Below are positions 819-7,099 of a DNA stretch of 64,000 nucleotides, one piece after another. The DNA is taken from NCBI RefSeq assembly GCF_018860165.1, contig NZ_JAHKNG010000019.1, forward strand, positions 1 to 64,000, given 5' to 3'. Source of the stretch: Paracoccus marinaquae. GTDB taxonomy: Bacteria > Pseudomonadota > Alphaproteobacteria > Rhodobacterales > Rhodobacteraceae. Below the pieces are notes generated by a model, which did no database searches, had not been told where the DNA came from, and saw only the letters and a list, made by a program, of their open reading frames with translations. A program made the translations under genes and the position numbers. Position 1 is the stretch's first letter. Every line of letters starts with the position of its first letter.

Positions 819-1418
819 ATGCTGGACGAGCATCATCAGACGGACTTCCGGACGCAATTCGTGCGTGAGCCTGCGGGACTGCGCCATTTCCCGGCGCTGG
901 TCCTGAATGCCGACTACCGGCCGCTCAGTTACTATCCCCTGTCGCTCTGGCCCTGGCAGGAGGCGATCAAGGCGGTGTTCCTCGACCGCGTCCAGATCAT
1001 CGCCGAATATGAGGAGGTGGTGCGAAGTCAGCGCCAGGCATTCCGGATCCCCTCGGTCGTCGTTCTGAAAGATTATGTAAGACCCCAGAAGCGCGTGGCA
1101 TTCACGCGCTTCAATCTTTTTCTGCGGGACGAATTCTGCTGCCAGTATTGCGGCGCCAAGGGGGATCTGACCTTCGATCATGTCGTGCCACGCTCACGCG
1201 GGGGGGTGACCAGTTGGGAAAACGTCGTGGCCGCCTGTTCGCCCTGCAACCTGCGCAAGGCCAATCGCAGCCTGCGCCATTCCGGCCTGTCGCTGCGCCG
1301 CAAGCCGCGCCAGCCGACCCCGGAAGAGATGCATGCCGTGGGCCGGCGCTTTCCGCCCAACCACCTGCATGACAGCTGGATGGACTTCCTCTACTGGGAC
1401 GCCGAACTGGAAAGCTGA
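819..1418 (+). CDS. HNH endonuclease family protein
   Basis: A 199-residue protein. The C-terminal half holds a zinc-braced HNH nuclease core: CQYCG, then FDHVVPRSRGG with the catalytic His, then NVV and CSPCN as the second Cys pair. The N-terminal LVLNADYRPL and YPLSLWPWQEAI are characteristic of a common stand-alone bacterial HNH subfamily whose role is unsettled. The start follows an aagg-type ribosome site. The last 28 bases overlap the convergent DUF1638 gene. No restriction methylase or phage gene is adjacent, so a housekeeping or repair role is as likely as defence. Confidence 0.88.
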   Translation: MLDEHHQTDFRTQFVREPAGLRHFPALVLNADYRPLSYYPLSLWPWQEAIKAVFLDRVQIIAEYEEVVRSQRQAFRIPSVVVLKDYVRPQKRVAFTRFNLFLRDEFCCQYCGAKGDLTFDHVVPRSRGGVTSWENVVAACSPCNLRKANRSLRHSGLSLRRKPRQPTPEEMHAVGRRFPPNHLHDSWMDFLYWDAELES

Positions 1419-2032
1419 GCCAGGACGGCGGGCAGGTCGCCATAGCCGGTGGCGCGACGCTCATAGCGCAGGCCCAGCCGCGCGGCCGCCTCGGCCGCCT
1501 TGGCGTCCAGCGCCGGATCGTCGGTCTGGGCCAGATAGATCAGCCGCTCGTAATGGGCAAAATACATGTCGCGCAGCTCGGGATGCCGGTCCAGCCCCAT
1601 CGAACGCCAGACGAAAGCATCGAACTGGCGGACGAGGAAATCGGTCAGGTAGAAGGCGGTGAACTCATCCTCGGCGCGGGCGGCATGGGCTTCAAGCCCG
1701 TCGAAGAAGGCATAGCAATGCGGGCCGGGGATCATCTCGATGCCCAGCTCCGCGCAACGCGCCTGCAGCAACCCGCCGGTGCCGCAATCGGCATAGACGA
1801 CGATGATCCGGTCATAGCCGTCGCGGTGACGCCTCACCGCCGTTTCGACGGCATCGGGGATTCTTTCGGGGCGCAAATGCAGTTCGGCCGGCAGGCAATG
1901 CAGATCCAGATGCGACCAGCCATTCGCATCGCGGATCGCCAGCAGTTCGCGCGCCAAGGCACCGCAGGCCAGCATCAGGCATCGAGGCGGGGCGGAACCG
2001 GGGTCCGGGCGGGGCTCAGCCCTTGTGGTCAT
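1391..2032 (-). CDS. DUF1638 family protein
   Basis: A 213-residue protein recognised as DUF1638 by LACGALARELLAI near the N-terminus, IIVVYADCGTGG in the middle and GPHCYAFFDG further on. These three segments each carry a conserved Cys, which hints at metal or cofactor binding (inference). Family members often begin close to the LACGAL motif, so the start could be an internal Met about 19 residues in. The annotated start overlaps the end of the upstream small membrane protein gene by 17 bases, suggesting one operon. Biochemical function is not established. Confidence 0.8.
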   Translation of the reverse strand: MTTRAEPRPDPGSAPPRCLMLACGALARELLAIRDANGWSHLDLHCLPAELHLRPERIPDAVETAVRRHRDGYDRIIVVYADCGTGGLLQARCAELGIEMIPGPHCYAFFDGLEAHAARAEDEFTAFYLTDFLVRQFDAFVWRSMGLDRHPELRDMYFAHYERLIYLAQTDDPALDAKAAEAAARLGLRYERRATGYGDLPAVLAQLSSSASQ

Positions 2033-2391: not shown

Positions 2392-3027
2392 CTACCAGCG
2401 CAGCAGATAACGTCCCATCAGCGCGCCGGCGGCACCGACGATCAGGATCGCAAGACCGTACCAGGTCAGGAAGAACAGCGGCGAATCCTCGTTGCAGTGC
2501 AGCGCGTAGAGGGCGGCGCTCAGGCCGCCGACCCCCAGCCCCAGCAAGCCGCCGCTGCGCATGGGCGCCGGGCTGGCCCCCGCGCGCAGCACCATCAGGC
2601 CCAGCCCCAGCGGCACCGCCGAGATCAGGGTGATCGTGGTCAGGCAGATCACCAGCGAATTCCCCCGCATTTCCGGCCAGAGCGTACCGGGCGCCGCCGC
2701 AAGCATCGACAGGATCAGCCAGATCGCGCCCGCCGCCAGCGCCGCGGCGACCAGATGCTGCGCCGGCACGCGCCGCGGCTGCGGTCGCGTCAGCCGCAGC
2801 GCGGCGCGCAGCGCCGGCAGCGCGATGGCCAGCGGCAGCAACCATTTCATCAGCACCACCGGATCGCCAAGCGCCGCCACCAGATCGGCCCGGATCCCGA
2901 GGATCGACAGCGCGACCGTGGCCGAACCCAGCAAGGCCAGTCCGGACCACAGGAAAAGGCGCGGCGCCACCGCCTGCGGCGGGGTATCGTCCTGCGCCAG
3001 AAGATCGATCAGGCATTCGGTCTTCAC
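2392..3027 (-). CDS. nrsF: Membrane anti-sigma factor, DUF1109/NrsF type
   Basis: A 211-residue protein with about six membrane helices after a short cytoplasmic N-terminus (KTECLIDLLAQ). This is the layout of DUF1109 anti-sigma factors such as Caulobacter NrsF. The GTG start overlaps the sigma-factor stop (GTGA) and has AGGAGG seven bases upstream. Two cysteines, C128 in NSLVICLT and C178 in LHCNED, are 50 residues apart. As I recall, Caulobacter NrsF has two cysteines at the same spacing that are needed for its metal response. Predicted role: hold the ECF sigma at the membrane until metal or oxidative stress. Confidence 0.85.
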   Translation of the reverse strand: MKTECLIDLLAQDDTPPQAVAPRLFLWSGLALLGSATVALSILGIRADLVAALGDPVVLMKWLLPLAIALPALRAALRLTRPQPRRVPAQHLVAAALAAGAIWLILSMLAAAPGTLWPEMRGNSLVICLTTITLISAVPLGLGLMVLRAGASPAPMRSGGLLGLGVGGLSAALYALHCNEDSPLFFLTWYGLAILIVGAAGALMGRYLLRW

Positions 3028-3581
3028 TGGCCGTCCTCCTGCCTCAGCCTTGCCAGCCGCTGCAGGGCGCGGTGCAGCGCCACCCGCAGCGCCCCCGGCG
3101 ACAGGCCGAGCCGGGCGCCGCATTCGGCCTGCCCGCGCTCCTCCAGCGCAAGACAGCGCAGCAGCGCGGCATCGCGTGCGGGCAGCCGGTCGATCAGGGT
3201 CGCCGCATCGCGCCTCTCGATCCCGTCCGGTTCCGGTGCGGCCTCCAGCGTCTCGGCAAAATCCTCGACCGGCAGATGCACGGCCCGCCCACGGCGGCGA
3301 AAGGCATCGACCAGCTTGTGACGGGCGATCGCATAGACCCAGGGGCGCAGCGGCTGATCGCTGTCCCAAGTGGCCCGCTTCAGATGAATCGCCATCAATG
3401 TCTCCTGCACCACATCCTCGCACCAGCCATCGTCCATGCCGCCGGCACGCGCCCGGATCAGCCCGCGCAGCACCGGCGCCATCCGGGTCAGCAACAGCCG
3501 ATAGGCCGGCCGATCGCCCGCCATGGCGGCGCGCATCAGTTCCGACCAACCCGGTCCGGCCTCTCCGCCGTCATGTCCCAT
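3024..3581 (-). CDS. sigF: ECF sigma factor, SigF-like
   Basis: A 185-residue ECF sigma factor. Region 2 contains DVVQETLMAIHLKR followed by PWVYAIARHKLVDAFRRR; region 4 contains LPARDAALLRCLALEE and a helix-turn-helix ending VALHRALQRL. It is directly coupled to a DUF1109 anti-sigma and divergent from a buf operon, the arrangement of Caulobacter SigF-NrsF. A GTG one codon upstream (3584) is an alternative start. The predicted promoter ends so close to the start that the mRNA may be nearly leaderless. It probably drives its own operon and bufABC-doxX. Confidence 0.88.
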   Translation of the reverse strand: MGHDGGEAGPGWSELMRAAMAGDRPAYRLLLTRMAPVLRGLIRARAGGMDDGWCEDVVQETLMAIHLKRATWDSDQPLRPWVYAIARHKLVDAFRRRGRAVHLPVEDFAETLEAAPEPDGIERRDAATLIDRLPARDAALLRCLALEERGQAECGARLGLSPGALRVALHRALQRLARLRQEDGQ

Positions 3582-3591
3582 CACCTGTCCC

Positions 3592-3617
3592 TACGTCTGA
3601 CCCCGCCCCGGCGTTAC
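3592..3617 (-). promoter_or_regulatory. Predicted ECF promoter of sigma/anti-sigma operon
   Basis: On the minus strand GTAACG (3617-3612) is followed after exactly 16 bases by CGTA (3595-3592). It differs by one base in the -10 from the promoter facing bufA. As I recall, SigF promoters in Caulobacter follow GTAACC-N16-CGAA. The transcript would start within a few bases of the sigma-factor start codon. Confidence 0.6.
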
Positions 3618-3662
3618 ACCATCAGGCCACGCCCCTGCGCATATCACGACTTCGTGAGGGCG

Positions 3663-3688
3663 GTAACGCCGCCTGCCGCCCCGCCGAA
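3663..3688 (+). promoter_or_regulatory. Predicted ECF promoter of buf operon
   Basis: GTAACG (3663-3668), 16 bases, then CGAA (3685-3688), about 50 bases before the bufA start. Element and spacing match the promoter on the opposite strand of the same spacer, as expected when one ECF sigma drives both directions. Confidence 0.68.
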
Positions 3689-3738
3689 TGGCCCGGTGGG
3701 ACGGCGATGCCGCCCGTTCAGCAACGAGGAGTGAGAAG

Positions 3739-4026
3739 ATGAGCCCGAAACTTGCAGCCGCCATCGCCACCGCCATCGGTCTGGCCGCCGCCGCCGCCCA
3801 TGCCCAGGACGCCATGGACGACATGGCCAGCGATGAGATGGAAAAATGCTACGGCGTCGCCATGGCGGGCCAGAACGACTGCGCCGCCGGTCCCGGCACC
3901 ACCTGCGCCGGCACCGCGACCATGGATTATCAGGGCAATGCCTGGAAGCTGGTTCCGGCCGGCACCTGCACCGGCATCGAAACCCCGGCCGGCCATAACG
4001 GCGCGCTGGAGCCGATCGAGATGTAA
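3739..4026 (+). CDS. bufA: BufA-type RiPP precursor (DUF2282), bufferin
   Basis: A 95-residue preprotein. A signal peptide runs to about AHA-QDA (residues 20-23), followed by a short acidic linker and a core with four cysteines: C37 in EKCYGVA, C48 in GQNDCA, C56 in TTCAG and C77 in PAGTC. This is the DUF2282 pattern. Known family members are modified by a DUF692 enzyme on cysteines and bind copper in the periplasm (bufferins; also the gold-induced gig operon). The chosen ATG has GAGGAG seven bases upstream; a longer frame upstream has no such site. It is the first gene of the operon. Confidence 0.87.
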
Positions 4027-4084
4027 TGCCCTGCGGGCGGGCACGCGGCCCGCCCGATCCAGCCCCTGTCTTTATGAGGTCGCC

Positions 4085-4927
4085 ATGCCCCTGCCCCTCG
4101 CCTCCGGCCTCGGCTTCAAGCCGCAGCATTTCCCGGCCATCCGCGACGGCCGCCCCGATCTGGGGTTCTTCGAGATCCATGCCGAGAACTACATGGGCGC
4201 GGGCGGTGCCCCCCATGCCATGCTGCGCGCGATCAGGCAGGATTACGCGCTGTCGATCCACGGCGTCGGTCTGTCGATCGGCGGACCGGCGCTGGACGAA
4301 ACCCATCTCGCCCGCGTCAGGACGCTGTGCGACCGCTATGAGCCGGACAGCTTTTCCGAGCATCTCGCCTGGTCCAGCCATGGCGCCGAATATCTGAACG
4401 ATCTGCTGCCCCTGCCCTATACGCGGCACACCCTTGATCGCGTCTGCGATCATGTGGACCGGGTGCAGGAGGCGCTGGGCCGGCGCCTGCTGCTGGAAAA
4501 CCCGGCCACCTATGTGATCTTCGCGCAGAGCGAGATGCCCGAGGCCGAATTCCTGACCCGGATCGCGGCGCGCACCGGCTGCGGGCTGCTGCTGGACATC
4601 AACAACGTCTTCGTCAGCTGCACCAACCACCGCACCGATCCGCTGGCCTATCTGGATGCCTTTCCGCTGGATCGGGTGGGCGAGATTCATCTGGGCGGCC
4701 ATGACGAGGAAGACCTGCCCTCGGGGCCGCTGCTGATCGACTCGCATGGGCGGGCGGTGGCGGAACCGGTCTGGGCCCTCTATGCCGCGCTTCTGGATCG
4801 CAGCGGGCCGCAGCCGACGCTGATCGAATGGGACAATGACGTGCCCGACTGGCCGGCACTGGCCGCCGAGGCCGCCCGCGCCGAGGCGATGATCGCGGAT
4901 CGGAGGCACCATGCTGCAGCCGAGTGA
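4085..4927 (+). CDS. bufB: BufB-type MNIO (DUF692) RiPP-modifying enzyme
   Basis: A 280-residue TIM-barrel protein of the multinuclear non-heme iron oxidase family. Likely iron ligands are visible: H59 (SIHGVGLS), E138 (LLLENP), D171 and an adjacent Asn (LLLDINNVF), H202 and H206 (EIHLGGHDE) and E248 (LIEWD). Relatives oxidise precursor cysteines to oxazolone/thioamide or thiooxazole groups. The start has gaggt close upstream; 58 bases separate it from bufA and its end overlaps bufC by 17 bases. Predicted to modify BufA before export. Confidence 0.9.
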
Positions 4928-5630
4928 CATCACCCCGGATGTCCGCGCGGCACTGGCGGGCGGGCCGGTGCCGGGCTTCATCACCGCGCGGCACCCGGCT
5001 GAGGCGGAACGACGCTTCGCCGTCTATCGCAACAACATCGCCCACAGCCTGCGCGAGGCGCTTGCCCGCCGCTTTCCGGTCATCCGGCGTCTGGTCGGCG
5101 CCGGGTTCTTCGGAGCGATGGCCGCCGAATTCATCGCCCGGCACCCGCCCCGCTCGCCGGTCCTGCAGGAATGGGGCGGCGATTTTCCGCATTTCCTCGG
5201 GCTTTTCGCGCCGGTCGCAACCCTGCCCTATCTGGGCGATGTCGCGCGGATCGAATGGGCGCGCGGCCAGGCCTATCACGCAGCCGACGCGCGCCCCTTG
5301 CCGCCCGAGCGGCTGGACGGGTCCGAACCGCTGCGCCTGCATCCGTCATTGCAACTGCTGCTGCTGAACCATCCGGCGGCAAGCATCTGGCAGGCCAACC
5401 AGCCGGGTCGGGATGGCCGGCTGCGCGCCACGGGGGCCGAAACGGCACTGATCTGGCGCCGCCCGGATTTCGAGGTCCGCGTGGCATCGCTGGCGCCGCT
5501 GGAGGCTGGGTTCATCGCGGCCCTGATGGGCGGGCGGACGCTGGAAACGGCCACGCTGCTGACCGATCCGGTGCCGATGCTGACGCTGCTGCTGCGCGAC
5601 GGCCTGATCTGCGGGGCAGAGGACGAATGA
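4911..5630 (+). CDS. bufC: BufC-type partner protein (DUF2063)
   Basis: A 239-residue protein with the DUF2063 N-terminal helical region ([18 protein letters not shown], then FPVIRRLVG) and a C-terminal domain that in relatives serves as precursor recognition element. MNIO enzymes of this group need such a partner to dock the precursor. It overlaps bufB by 17 bases and doxX by 4, indicating tight translational coupling. There is no signal peptide, consistent with action in the cytoplasm with BufB. Confidence 0.88.
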
Positions 5631-6094
5631 TGACGACATCTCCCCGGGGCATAGGCCTGGTCGCGCCGATCCGACGGCTGAACGAACGCGCCGGCCATAT
5701 CCCCTTCGCACTGGTCGGGCTGGCGGCGCGGCTGTTTCCTGCGGCGGTATTCTGGACCAGCGGGCGCACCAAGCTGGACGGGCTGACGCTGAAACCTTCG
5801 ACGCTCTACCTGTTTCAGAACGATTATGCGCTGCCCCTGATCCCGCCCGGCCTTGCCGCAAGGCTGGCCACAACAGCGGAACATCTGTTCCCTGTCCTGC
5901 TGCTGCTGGGATTGATGACGCGGATGTCGGCGCTGGCCCTGCTCGGCATGACGGCGGTGATCCAGATCTTCGTCTATCCCTCGGCATGGCAGATCCACGG
6001 GCTGTGGGCGGCCTGTTTCCTGATCCTCATCGCCCGCGGCCCGGGAAGCTGGTCGCTGGACGCAGCCCTCGGCCTCGACCGGGACGCTGGCTGA
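5627..6094 (+). CDS. DoxX family membrane protein of buf operon
   Basis: A 155-residue protein with about four membrane helices. Features are [26 protein letters not shown] near the first helix, [23 protein letters not shown] in the middle and a C-terminal helix around [12 protein letters not shown] (quoted only in part). DoxX proteins commonly end buf/gig operons; their role is unclear, and redox or quinone-linked functions have been proposed. The start overlaps the bufC stop (ATGA). A second Met follows directly, so the start may be one codon later. Confidence 0.85.
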
Positions 6095-6223: not shown

Positions 6224-7099
6224 CTAGATCAGGCCGGCATGCACCAGCGCCGCGTCGATCAGGCGGCGCGTGGGATCGGTCAGCGGCACCAACGGCAGGC
6301 GCACACGCTCATCGCAGAGCCCCAGCCGGGCCATGGCGTATTTCGCACCGACCAGCCCCGGCTCGACGAAGATCGCGTGATGCAAGGGCATCAGCCGGTC
6401 CTGATAGTCCAGTGCCGCGGCGTAGTCGCCGCGCAGCGTCGCCTCCTGGAACTCGGCGCAGAGCTTCGGCGCGACATTGGCGGTCACGCTGATGCAGCCG
6501 ACACCACCATGGGCGTTGAAGCCAAGCGCAGTCGCATCCTCGCCCGACAGCTGGATGAAATCCGCGCCGCAGGTGATTCGCTGCTGGCTCACCCGCTCGA
6601 GCCGGCCGGTCGCGTCCTTCACGCCCACGATCTGCGGCAGTTGCGACAGCACGCCCATGGTCTCGGGGCTCATGTCGATGACCGAGCGGCCGGGAATGTT
6701 GTAGATGATGATCGGCAGGTCCACCGCCTCGGCCAGCGCCGTGTAATGCGCGATCAGGCCGGCCTGGGTGGGCTTGTTGTAATAGGGCGTCACCACCAGC
6801 GCGGCATTGGCCCCGACCTCTGCGGCGTGGCGCAGAAGCCCGATCCCCTCGCGGGTCGAGTTCGATCCGGCCCCGGCGATCACCGGGACGCGCCCGGCGG
6901 CGGCCTTGATCACCTCTTCGACGACCAGCCGGTGTTCGTCATGGGTCAGGGTCGGGCTCTCGCCGGTGGTGCCGACCGGCACGAGGCCGTGGCTGCCCTG
7001 ATCGACATGCCATTCGACCAGCTTTTTCAGCGTGTTCAGATCCAGTTCGCCGTCCGCGGTGAACGGCGTGATCAGTGCGGGCATCGACCCTTTGAACAT
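6224..7099 (-). CDS. dapA: 4-hydroxy-tetrahydrodipicolinate synthase
   Basis: A 291-residue enzyme condensing pyruvate with aspartate semialdehyde, the first committed step of lysine and diaminopimelate synthesis. The Schiff-base lysine is K161 in GVKDATG. T44 and T45 (VGTTGE), Y133 and R138 (YNIPGR) complete the active site. Length and motifs are typical. The start has AAGGAG upstream. The gene is divergent from the lytic transglycosylase, so two cell-wall functions share a spacer of about 110 bp. Confidence 0.97.

Follow-up and report, generated by a model that had tools for sequence, protein, structure and literature searches.

What turns on a bufferin operon, and what else does the same switch control? 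The question is raised by six adjoining genes in a 64,000-nucleotide stretch of Paracoccus marinaquae DNA (contig NZ_JAHKNG010000019.1, positions 1 to 64,000), which is referred to throughout as the window. Two of the genes, sigF and nrsF, encode an extracytoplasmic function (ECF) sigma factor and its membrane anti-sigma factor. The other four, bufABC-doxX, diverge from these and encode a bufferin precursor—the starting point for a ribosomally synthesized and post-translationally modified peptide (RiPP)—and the proteins that accompany it. We read the locus as a Buf1 bufferin operon under the control of a SigF/NrsF (ECF16) envelope-stress switch, the predicted regulon of which has three parts: sigF-nrsF, bufABC-doxX and, on another contig, msrPQ. 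The probability of this reading is, in our estimate, roughly 0.85.

The six genes and their promoters

A sequence-only reading of the window had picked out an ECF sigma factor, a DUF1109 anti-sigma factor with two cysteines 50 residues apart, a four-cysteine RiPP precursor, an MNIO, its DUF2063 partner and DoxX, and had described them as one compact, probably autoregulated locus made of parts known from Caulobacter and from the gig operon of Cupriavidus. That description stands. All six products exceed the Pfam gathering scores (Table 1), NrsF has its cysteine pair at C128 and C178, BufA has cysteines at 37, 48, 56 and 77 following what appears by eye to be a Sec-type leader, and the same arrangement occurs in both of the other organisms. 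The genes are tightly packed: nrsF begins with a GTG that overlaps the sigF stop codon, bufB and bufC share 17 bases, and the start of doxX overlaps the stop of bufC. Where the sequence-only reading fell short was in its view of the regulon, of which it saw the bufferin half only, overlooking msrPQ on the other contig.

BufB is the sole product at the locus to pass a narrow NCBIfam model (MNIO_BufB, 380.1 versus a cut-off of 310), and it is related in sequence to the solved DUF692/MNIO chains 3bww and 8hci. The sigF product passes the broad sigma70-ECF model (55 versus 42.9). The genome has one DUF2282 match and one MNIO match at E <= 0.001, both in the window, and among loci with species names the nearest BufB proteins are those of P. 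onchidii (77% identity) and P. homiensis (73%).

NrsF-family proteins have six transmembrane segments (PMC3511200), and the cysteine pair is nearly invariant among them. In an alignment of 80 sequences, the window's included, C128 is present in 79 (the other has a gap), C178 in all 80, and the two are exactly 50 residues apart in 78. The equivalent residues of the Caulobacter protein, C131 and C181, affect repression (PMC3511200); in Bradyrhizobium, the response to H2O2 requires C179, and C129 is needed to retain the sigma factor (PMC3420878). The window's NrsF has an additional cysteine, Cys5, that Caulobacter NrsF does not. Because it is present in this one protein among the 80, we have set it aside as a candidate sensor feature.

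Two divergent SigF-type promoters, one before each transcription unit, stand in the 154-base gap that separates sigF from bufA, and their positions support autoregulation. The listed GTG start of sigF (3584) comes only 7 bases after its own promoter match ends. The message would therefore be nearly leaderless, unless the true start is an internal methionine, such as Met17 (~3536).

In the 4.18-Mb genome, the strict pattern GTAACG-N16-CGWA has five exact matches: the two in the window, one (L004) before msrP, and two others. L003 is antisense within a transketolase gene, and we judge it to be a chance match. L005 (G000:C93:8422-8447) lies ~125 bases before an integrase-like gene and points in the same direction; ARAGORN finds no tRNA there and, with nothing else supporting a role for it, this match, too, is perhaps due to chance. 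Relaxed-pattern matches that are oriented against their neighbouring genes (L348, L349), or that fall inside open reading frames (L350, L351, L352), were dismissed likewise.

Table 1. Features of the locus and its flanks, with positions in the window
Feature	Position	Strand	Basis
nrsF, DUF1109/NrsF anti-sigma factor, 211 aa	2392..3027	-	Pfam NrsF, 148 bits versus gathering score 26.8
sigF, SigF/ECF16-kind ECF sigma factor, <=186 aa	3024..3584	-	Pfam Sigma70_r2 and Sigma70_r4_2
sigF-nrsF promoter, GTAACG-N16-CGTA	3592..3617	-	Sequence match; comparable minus-strand sites in relatives
bufABC-doxX promoter, GTAACG-N16-CGAA	3663..3688	+	Sequence match; 50 bases upstream of bufA ATG
bufA, Buf1-type (DUF2282) bufferin precursor, 95 aa	3739..4026	+	Pfam DUF2282, 90.7 versus 22.4
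bufB, MNIO bufferin maturase, 280 aa	4085..4927	+	Pfam MbnB_TglH_ChrH, 348.7 versus 25
bufC, DUF2063 (HvfC-like) partner protein	4911..5630	+	Pfam DUF2063, 87.8 versus 27.2
doxX, HvfX/GigT-like membrane protein	5630..6094	+	Pfam DoxX, 63.2 versus 23.6
dapA, right flank; site where three relatives are without the buf operon	6224..7099	-	TIGR00674, synteny
HNH endonuclease gene	819-1418	+	Recurs beside nrsF in several relatives
DUF1638 gene	1391-2032	-	Recurs beside nrsF in several relatives

SigF-type sites before bufA and msrP in relatives

Relaxed forms of the promoter pattern (GTAAC, with gaps of 16–17) were chosen after the first sites had been seen, and gaps of 12–23 served as the control. 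Besides the window there were 110 distinct bufB loci to consider: 12 plus 20 from genomes of the family, and 78 of another 80, counted after L174 and L223 had been removed as duplicates of L031 and L119. SigF lies within 4.5 kb of bufB in 51 of these, and was not detected in the stretch examined in the other 59. GTAAC-N17-CGW occurs within 400 bases before bufA at 33 of the 51 SigF-linked loci versus 8 of the 59 others (Fisher 4e-8, uncorrected for relatedness). At the control spacings the corresponding counts are 0–4 and 0–5.

A gene elsewhere in the genome carries the same kind of site. In the window genome L004 stands before msrP, and the gene that follows msrP is msrQ-like, a call made by eye because it resembles the one downstream of msrP at another Paracoccus locus, L304. 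Two sets of genomes were surveyed, leaving out those with no msrP match (6 of 30 with NrsF and 3 of 30 without it in the first set, and 2 of 30 in a mixed Paracoccus set). Among the 24 genomes of the first set that have both NrsF and msrP, 10 have the site (seven with spacing 17, three with spacing 16), and none of the 27 that have msrP without NrsF does. In the second set, drawn within Paracoccus, the site is found in 13 of 14 genomes with NrsF versus 0 of 14 without (Fisher 7e-7), at -125 to -128 in every case.

When the two sets are combined, Paracoccus has the msrP site in 20 of 26 genomes with NrsF and in 0 of 15 without. The window's branch of the SigF tree accounts for 16 of these sites in 16 genomes; Paracoccus genomes with NrsF outside that branch have it in 4 of 10, and genomes of the family outside Paracoccus that are without NrsF have it in 0 of 26. 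As far as sites can tell, then, the link between SigF and msrP holds throughout the window's branch, holds in some genomes beyond it, and is absent where NrsF is absent. Within the branch, the site is also kept in all seven genomes that have no DUF2282 (G126, G155, G170, G174, G175, G195 and G197). These sites suggest that the switch also controls the protein-repair enzyme MsrPQ, and that in the branch this output is more constant than the bufferin.

Elsewhere in Paracoccus, divergent SigF-NrsF pairs are found in other company, the names being assigned by eye: beside msrP-msrQ at L304 (G131), beside a methionine-rich MXKDX-like peptide at L305 (G177), and beside msrB-msrA and a methionine-rich peptide at L317 (G152).

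A number of observations weigh against the three-part regulon, or against the family assignments on which it depends. The motif was not matched within 400 bases of bufA at 18 of the 51 SigF-linked loci, and the 8 of 59 loci that have it with no SigF detected nearby exceed the 0–5 found at other spacings; for some of those eight, SigF may be elsewhere in the genome or lost past the end of the contig. The msrP site was not matched in 6 of the 26 Paracoccus genomes with NrsF, and outside Paracoccus it was matched in only 3 of 12 genomes of the family with NrsF. Both the locus tests and the genome tests ignore relatedness among the genomes. Within the window genome, the strict pattern read backwards has 26 matches to the 5 forward, and with the sixth base freed there are 44 backwards to 10 forward. 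Rarity, therefore, is no argument for these sites; their position and their conservation are. Finally, several narrow models are not reached: NrsF scores 87.9 against the cut-off of 300 for AntiSigF_NrsF, the sigma factor 196.7 bits against 198 for PRK12512, a narrow miss, BufA 21.3 against 60 for BufA2, BufC 64.4 against 142 for HvfC, and DoxX 50.4 against 80 for HvfX. The window's NrsF is thus a member of the Pfam family that falls outside the narrow AntiSigF_NrsF equivalog.

Known systems and the likely signal

The locus combination is one that is already known. Caulobacter crescentus has an ECF sigma factor with an NrsF that carries two conserved cysteines 50 residues apart (PMC3511200, PMC8224329), DUF2282-DUF692-DUF2063-DoxX operons (CC3254-CC3257 and CC2907-CC2905), and SigF-type sequences before sigF, before the buf operons and before the YedY/MsrP gene—the same three-part regulon, then, with the difference that Caulobacter has two bufferin operons and the window genome one. 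The gigPABT/rpoQ-rsqA genes of Cupriavidus metallidurans are arranged comparably: a divergent ECF sigma factor and membrane anti-sigma factor, a small four-cysteine periplasmic protein, a DUF2063 partner and the DoxX-like GigT (PMC10304878). They are induced by copper and gold, though dependence on RpoQ is not demonstrated in the account given there. Buf1 (DUF2282) clusters in general have the core set of RiPP, MNIO, DUF2063 protein and DoxX, and sigma factor and NrsF genes are recorded in Buf1 clusters, not in Buf2 clusters (PMC12452194). That account is at the level of a survey, and its passages on these clusters give neither the promoters nor the link to msrPQ. Bradyrhizobium EcfF-OsrA and the Brucella ECF16 system are alike in their ECF16 sigma factor with a DUF1109 anti-sigma factor, Cys129 and Cys179, autoregulation and Msr-type targets, and differ in their inducers, which are H2O2, singlet oxygen or HOCl (PMC3420878, PMC8315932); neither paper's main text contains the words DUF2282 or DUF692. 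Among the matches listed in the open-licence PMC literature there is no account of the Paracoccus regulon or of its buf-less sites. Our comparative points are modest additions to a known system: the locus would extend a known copper-tolerance circuit to Paracoccus, and the comparison separates a constant output of SigF, the repair of methionine sulfoxide, from a variable one, the bufferin.

The genes, the conserved cysteines, the promoter sites and the coupling of the msrP site to NrsF are what our analysis contributes directly; the working of the switch is pieced together in part from relatives. NrsF, in the inner membrane, would hold SigF until copper, another soft metal or an oxidant attacked C128 and C178, and SigF, once freed, would transcribe sigF-nrsF, bufABC-doxX and msrPQ from their GTAACG-N16-CGWA promoters. 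BufB and BufC would convert the two central cysteines of BufA to thiooxazoles, a modification described for the central cysteines of bufferins (PMC12452194). Exported BufA, if it binds copper as its relatives do, would then buffer copper in the periplasm, DoxX would assist by some means, and MsrPQ would repair the oxidized methionines of periplasmic proteins.

What attacks the thiols in nature is a matter of balance. The sequence-only reading took metal stress to be the inducer, and we incline the same way: a main physiological signal of copper, or another soft metal, binding directly to the thiols of NrsF seems to us somewhat better than an even bet. In Caulobacter, copper raises SigF, both buf clusters and MsrPQ in all conditions tested, and a sigF mutant is copper-sensitive (PMC8224329); the study of 2012 found induction of SigF targets by chromium and cadmium (PMC3511200). 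The Cupriavidus gig genes are induced by copper and gold, with the signal placed in the periplasm (PMC10304878), and the product of the window's own operon is a member of the bufferin family. By the Caulobacter precedent, then, induction of the window's switch by copper or a soft metal is likely, and precedent also gives good support to the idea that a copper-binding RiPP is produced in response to copper. Two points tell against metal as the main signal. The passages of the cited work that concern the switch describe no direct binding of metal to NrsF, and the seven genomes mentioned above keep SigF-NrsF and the msrP site without DUF2282, the only bufferin type searched for.

Those same seven genomes speak for oxidants. 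If HOCl, H2O2 or singlet oxygen were the main signal, oxidizing the thiols of NrsF, then MsrPQ repair would be the main output, and the bufferin would hold copper that is released by, or aggravates, oxidative damage. Retention of the msrP site in all seven fits this arrangement, as do the SigF-NrsF pairs elsewhere in Paracoccus that adjoin msrP-msrQ, msrB-msrA with a methionine-rich peptide, and an MXKDX-like peptide. So does the behaviour of EcfF-OsrA, which responds to H2O2 and singlet oxygen, and of BcrS, which responds to HOCl (PMC3420878, PMC8315932). However, the SigF proteins with these Msr-type neighbours are divergent, only 39–52% identical to the window's, and two of the genomes (G131 and G177) have no pattern match within 300 bases of msrP. 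In Caulobacter, moreover, chromium, cadmium and copper induced the targets of SigF and generators of reactive oxygen species did not (PMC3511200, PMC8224329). On balance we think oxidants the unlikelier main signal, although the link to msrPQ and the oxidant-induced ECF16 relatives keep them in contention. Co-regulation of msrPQ does not decide the matter, because MsrPQ is discussed in connection with copper stress, too, in Escherichia coli (PMC9302797).

Distribution and regulation of the bufferin operon

How firmly is the operon attached to its switch? Among 125 Paracoccus genomes, 48 have an NrsF that scores over the cut-off, and the 32 with DUF2282 all belong to these 48; none of the 77 genomes without NrsF at that score has DUF2282. 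A draw of 120 genomes from the family has NrsF in 18, DUF2282 in 85 and both in 15, which leaves 70 of the 85 DUF2282-bearing genomes with no NrsF match.

Fourteen buf-bearing Paracoccus loci (L354-L367) were compared with the window. Nine of them (L354-L362) have the order nrsF-sigF-bufABC-dapA-slt in common with it, doxX being unmatched in L362; in the stretches examined for the other five, L363-L367, dapA was not seen. The HNH gene recurs in six of the buf-bearing stretches and the DUF1638 gene in four. In three species (L313, L315 and L316) nrsF-sigF adjoins dapA-slt with no buf operon between, the sigF promoter is retained, and no DUF2282 was found in the genome; dapA is matched only in part at L316. 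In four other genomes of the window's SigF branch (G126, G170, G174 and G175), nrsF-sigF lies in different surroundings, and there is no DUF2282. The three species with an empty dapA site offer clean comparisons of fitness.

Buf-bearing and buf-less rows are intermixed in the SigF tree of 40 rows, which implies at least nine changes, eight of them forced by starred branches; one change is due to L366, which is labelled buf-less yet has a truncated bufB match. Within the window's branch, loss of the operon is the simpler reading. Gain by transfer is a possible alternative, because similar bufferin genes sit on plasmids.

Two such plasmids are NZ_CP040764.1 of Paracoccus liaowanqingii (a DNA match over 39% of the query) and NZ_CP076366.1 of Gemmobacter fulvus (26%).

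Plasmid carriage, together with the operon's absence from the same site in some close relatives, might lead one to regard it as a passenger, brought to sigF-nrsF by an accident of transfer, with bufA driven by some other promoter. We consider this very improbable in view of the SigF-type site that precedes bufA at one spacing across genera, and of the strict co-occurrence of DUF2282 with NrsF in Paracoccus.

Control by SigF/NrsF, our reading for Paracoccus, appears not to extend to much of the family. The BufB tree (FastTree, 124 rows, with L151 assigned to the SigF-linked class by hand) falls into two parts, divided by a weak branch (support 71): in one, 60 of 72 rows are SigF-linked, and in the other, 46 of 52 are SigF-free. 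No SigF site precedes bufA in 20 upstream regions, from the series L079-L103, of genomes without NrsF. Instead, 15 of the 20 (for example L103, L101, L097, L088 and L080) contain the operator-like array CGTGA-N2-CACG-N4-CGTGA with no more than two mismatches, in 14 cases at 89–105 bases upstream of the start; the remaining five do not show it. L102 was excluded, its contig beginning 12 bases before bufA. The frequency of the array is matched in 0.3% of 600 shuffles, in which dinucleotides were kept only where the random walk of the script succeeded, and single bases otherwise. Since the pattern was derived from the same related sequences, this is a strong lead rather than a test.

With one mismatch allowed, in 12 genomes, the array matches the bufA upstream region in 6 of the 11 without NrsF, and other matches are scattered, some in rpsD; one recurrent match of this type, GTGAACCACGGCCACGTGA, lies inside rpsD and, being coding sequence, was discarded. 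In the window genome the array has six one-mismatch matches, against one when the pattern is read backwards. Among the matches listed in open-licence PMC papers there is no account of the array, no search having been aimed at it.

The comparison points to a second mode of bufferin regulation in the family. We slightly favour the view that the Rhodobacterales bufferin operon is a module open to exchange, and that it has two regulators or more. Within Paracoccus it would be connected to the SigF/NrsF switch, with its constant MsrPQ output, and would have been dropped several times, apparently, while the switch and the msrP site were kept. In most of the family it would belong mainly to another BufB lineage, without NrsF, and often with a conserved CGTGA array that a different regulator binds.

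No conserved regulator was recognized by eye beside the SigF-free operons, no family search having been made; their recurrent neighbours, again by eye, are thrS-, Spx/ArsC-like, cold-shock and ThyX-like genes. At one family locus, L093 (G007), two bufA genes precede a single bufB, and paired DUF2282 matches are found in G100 as well.

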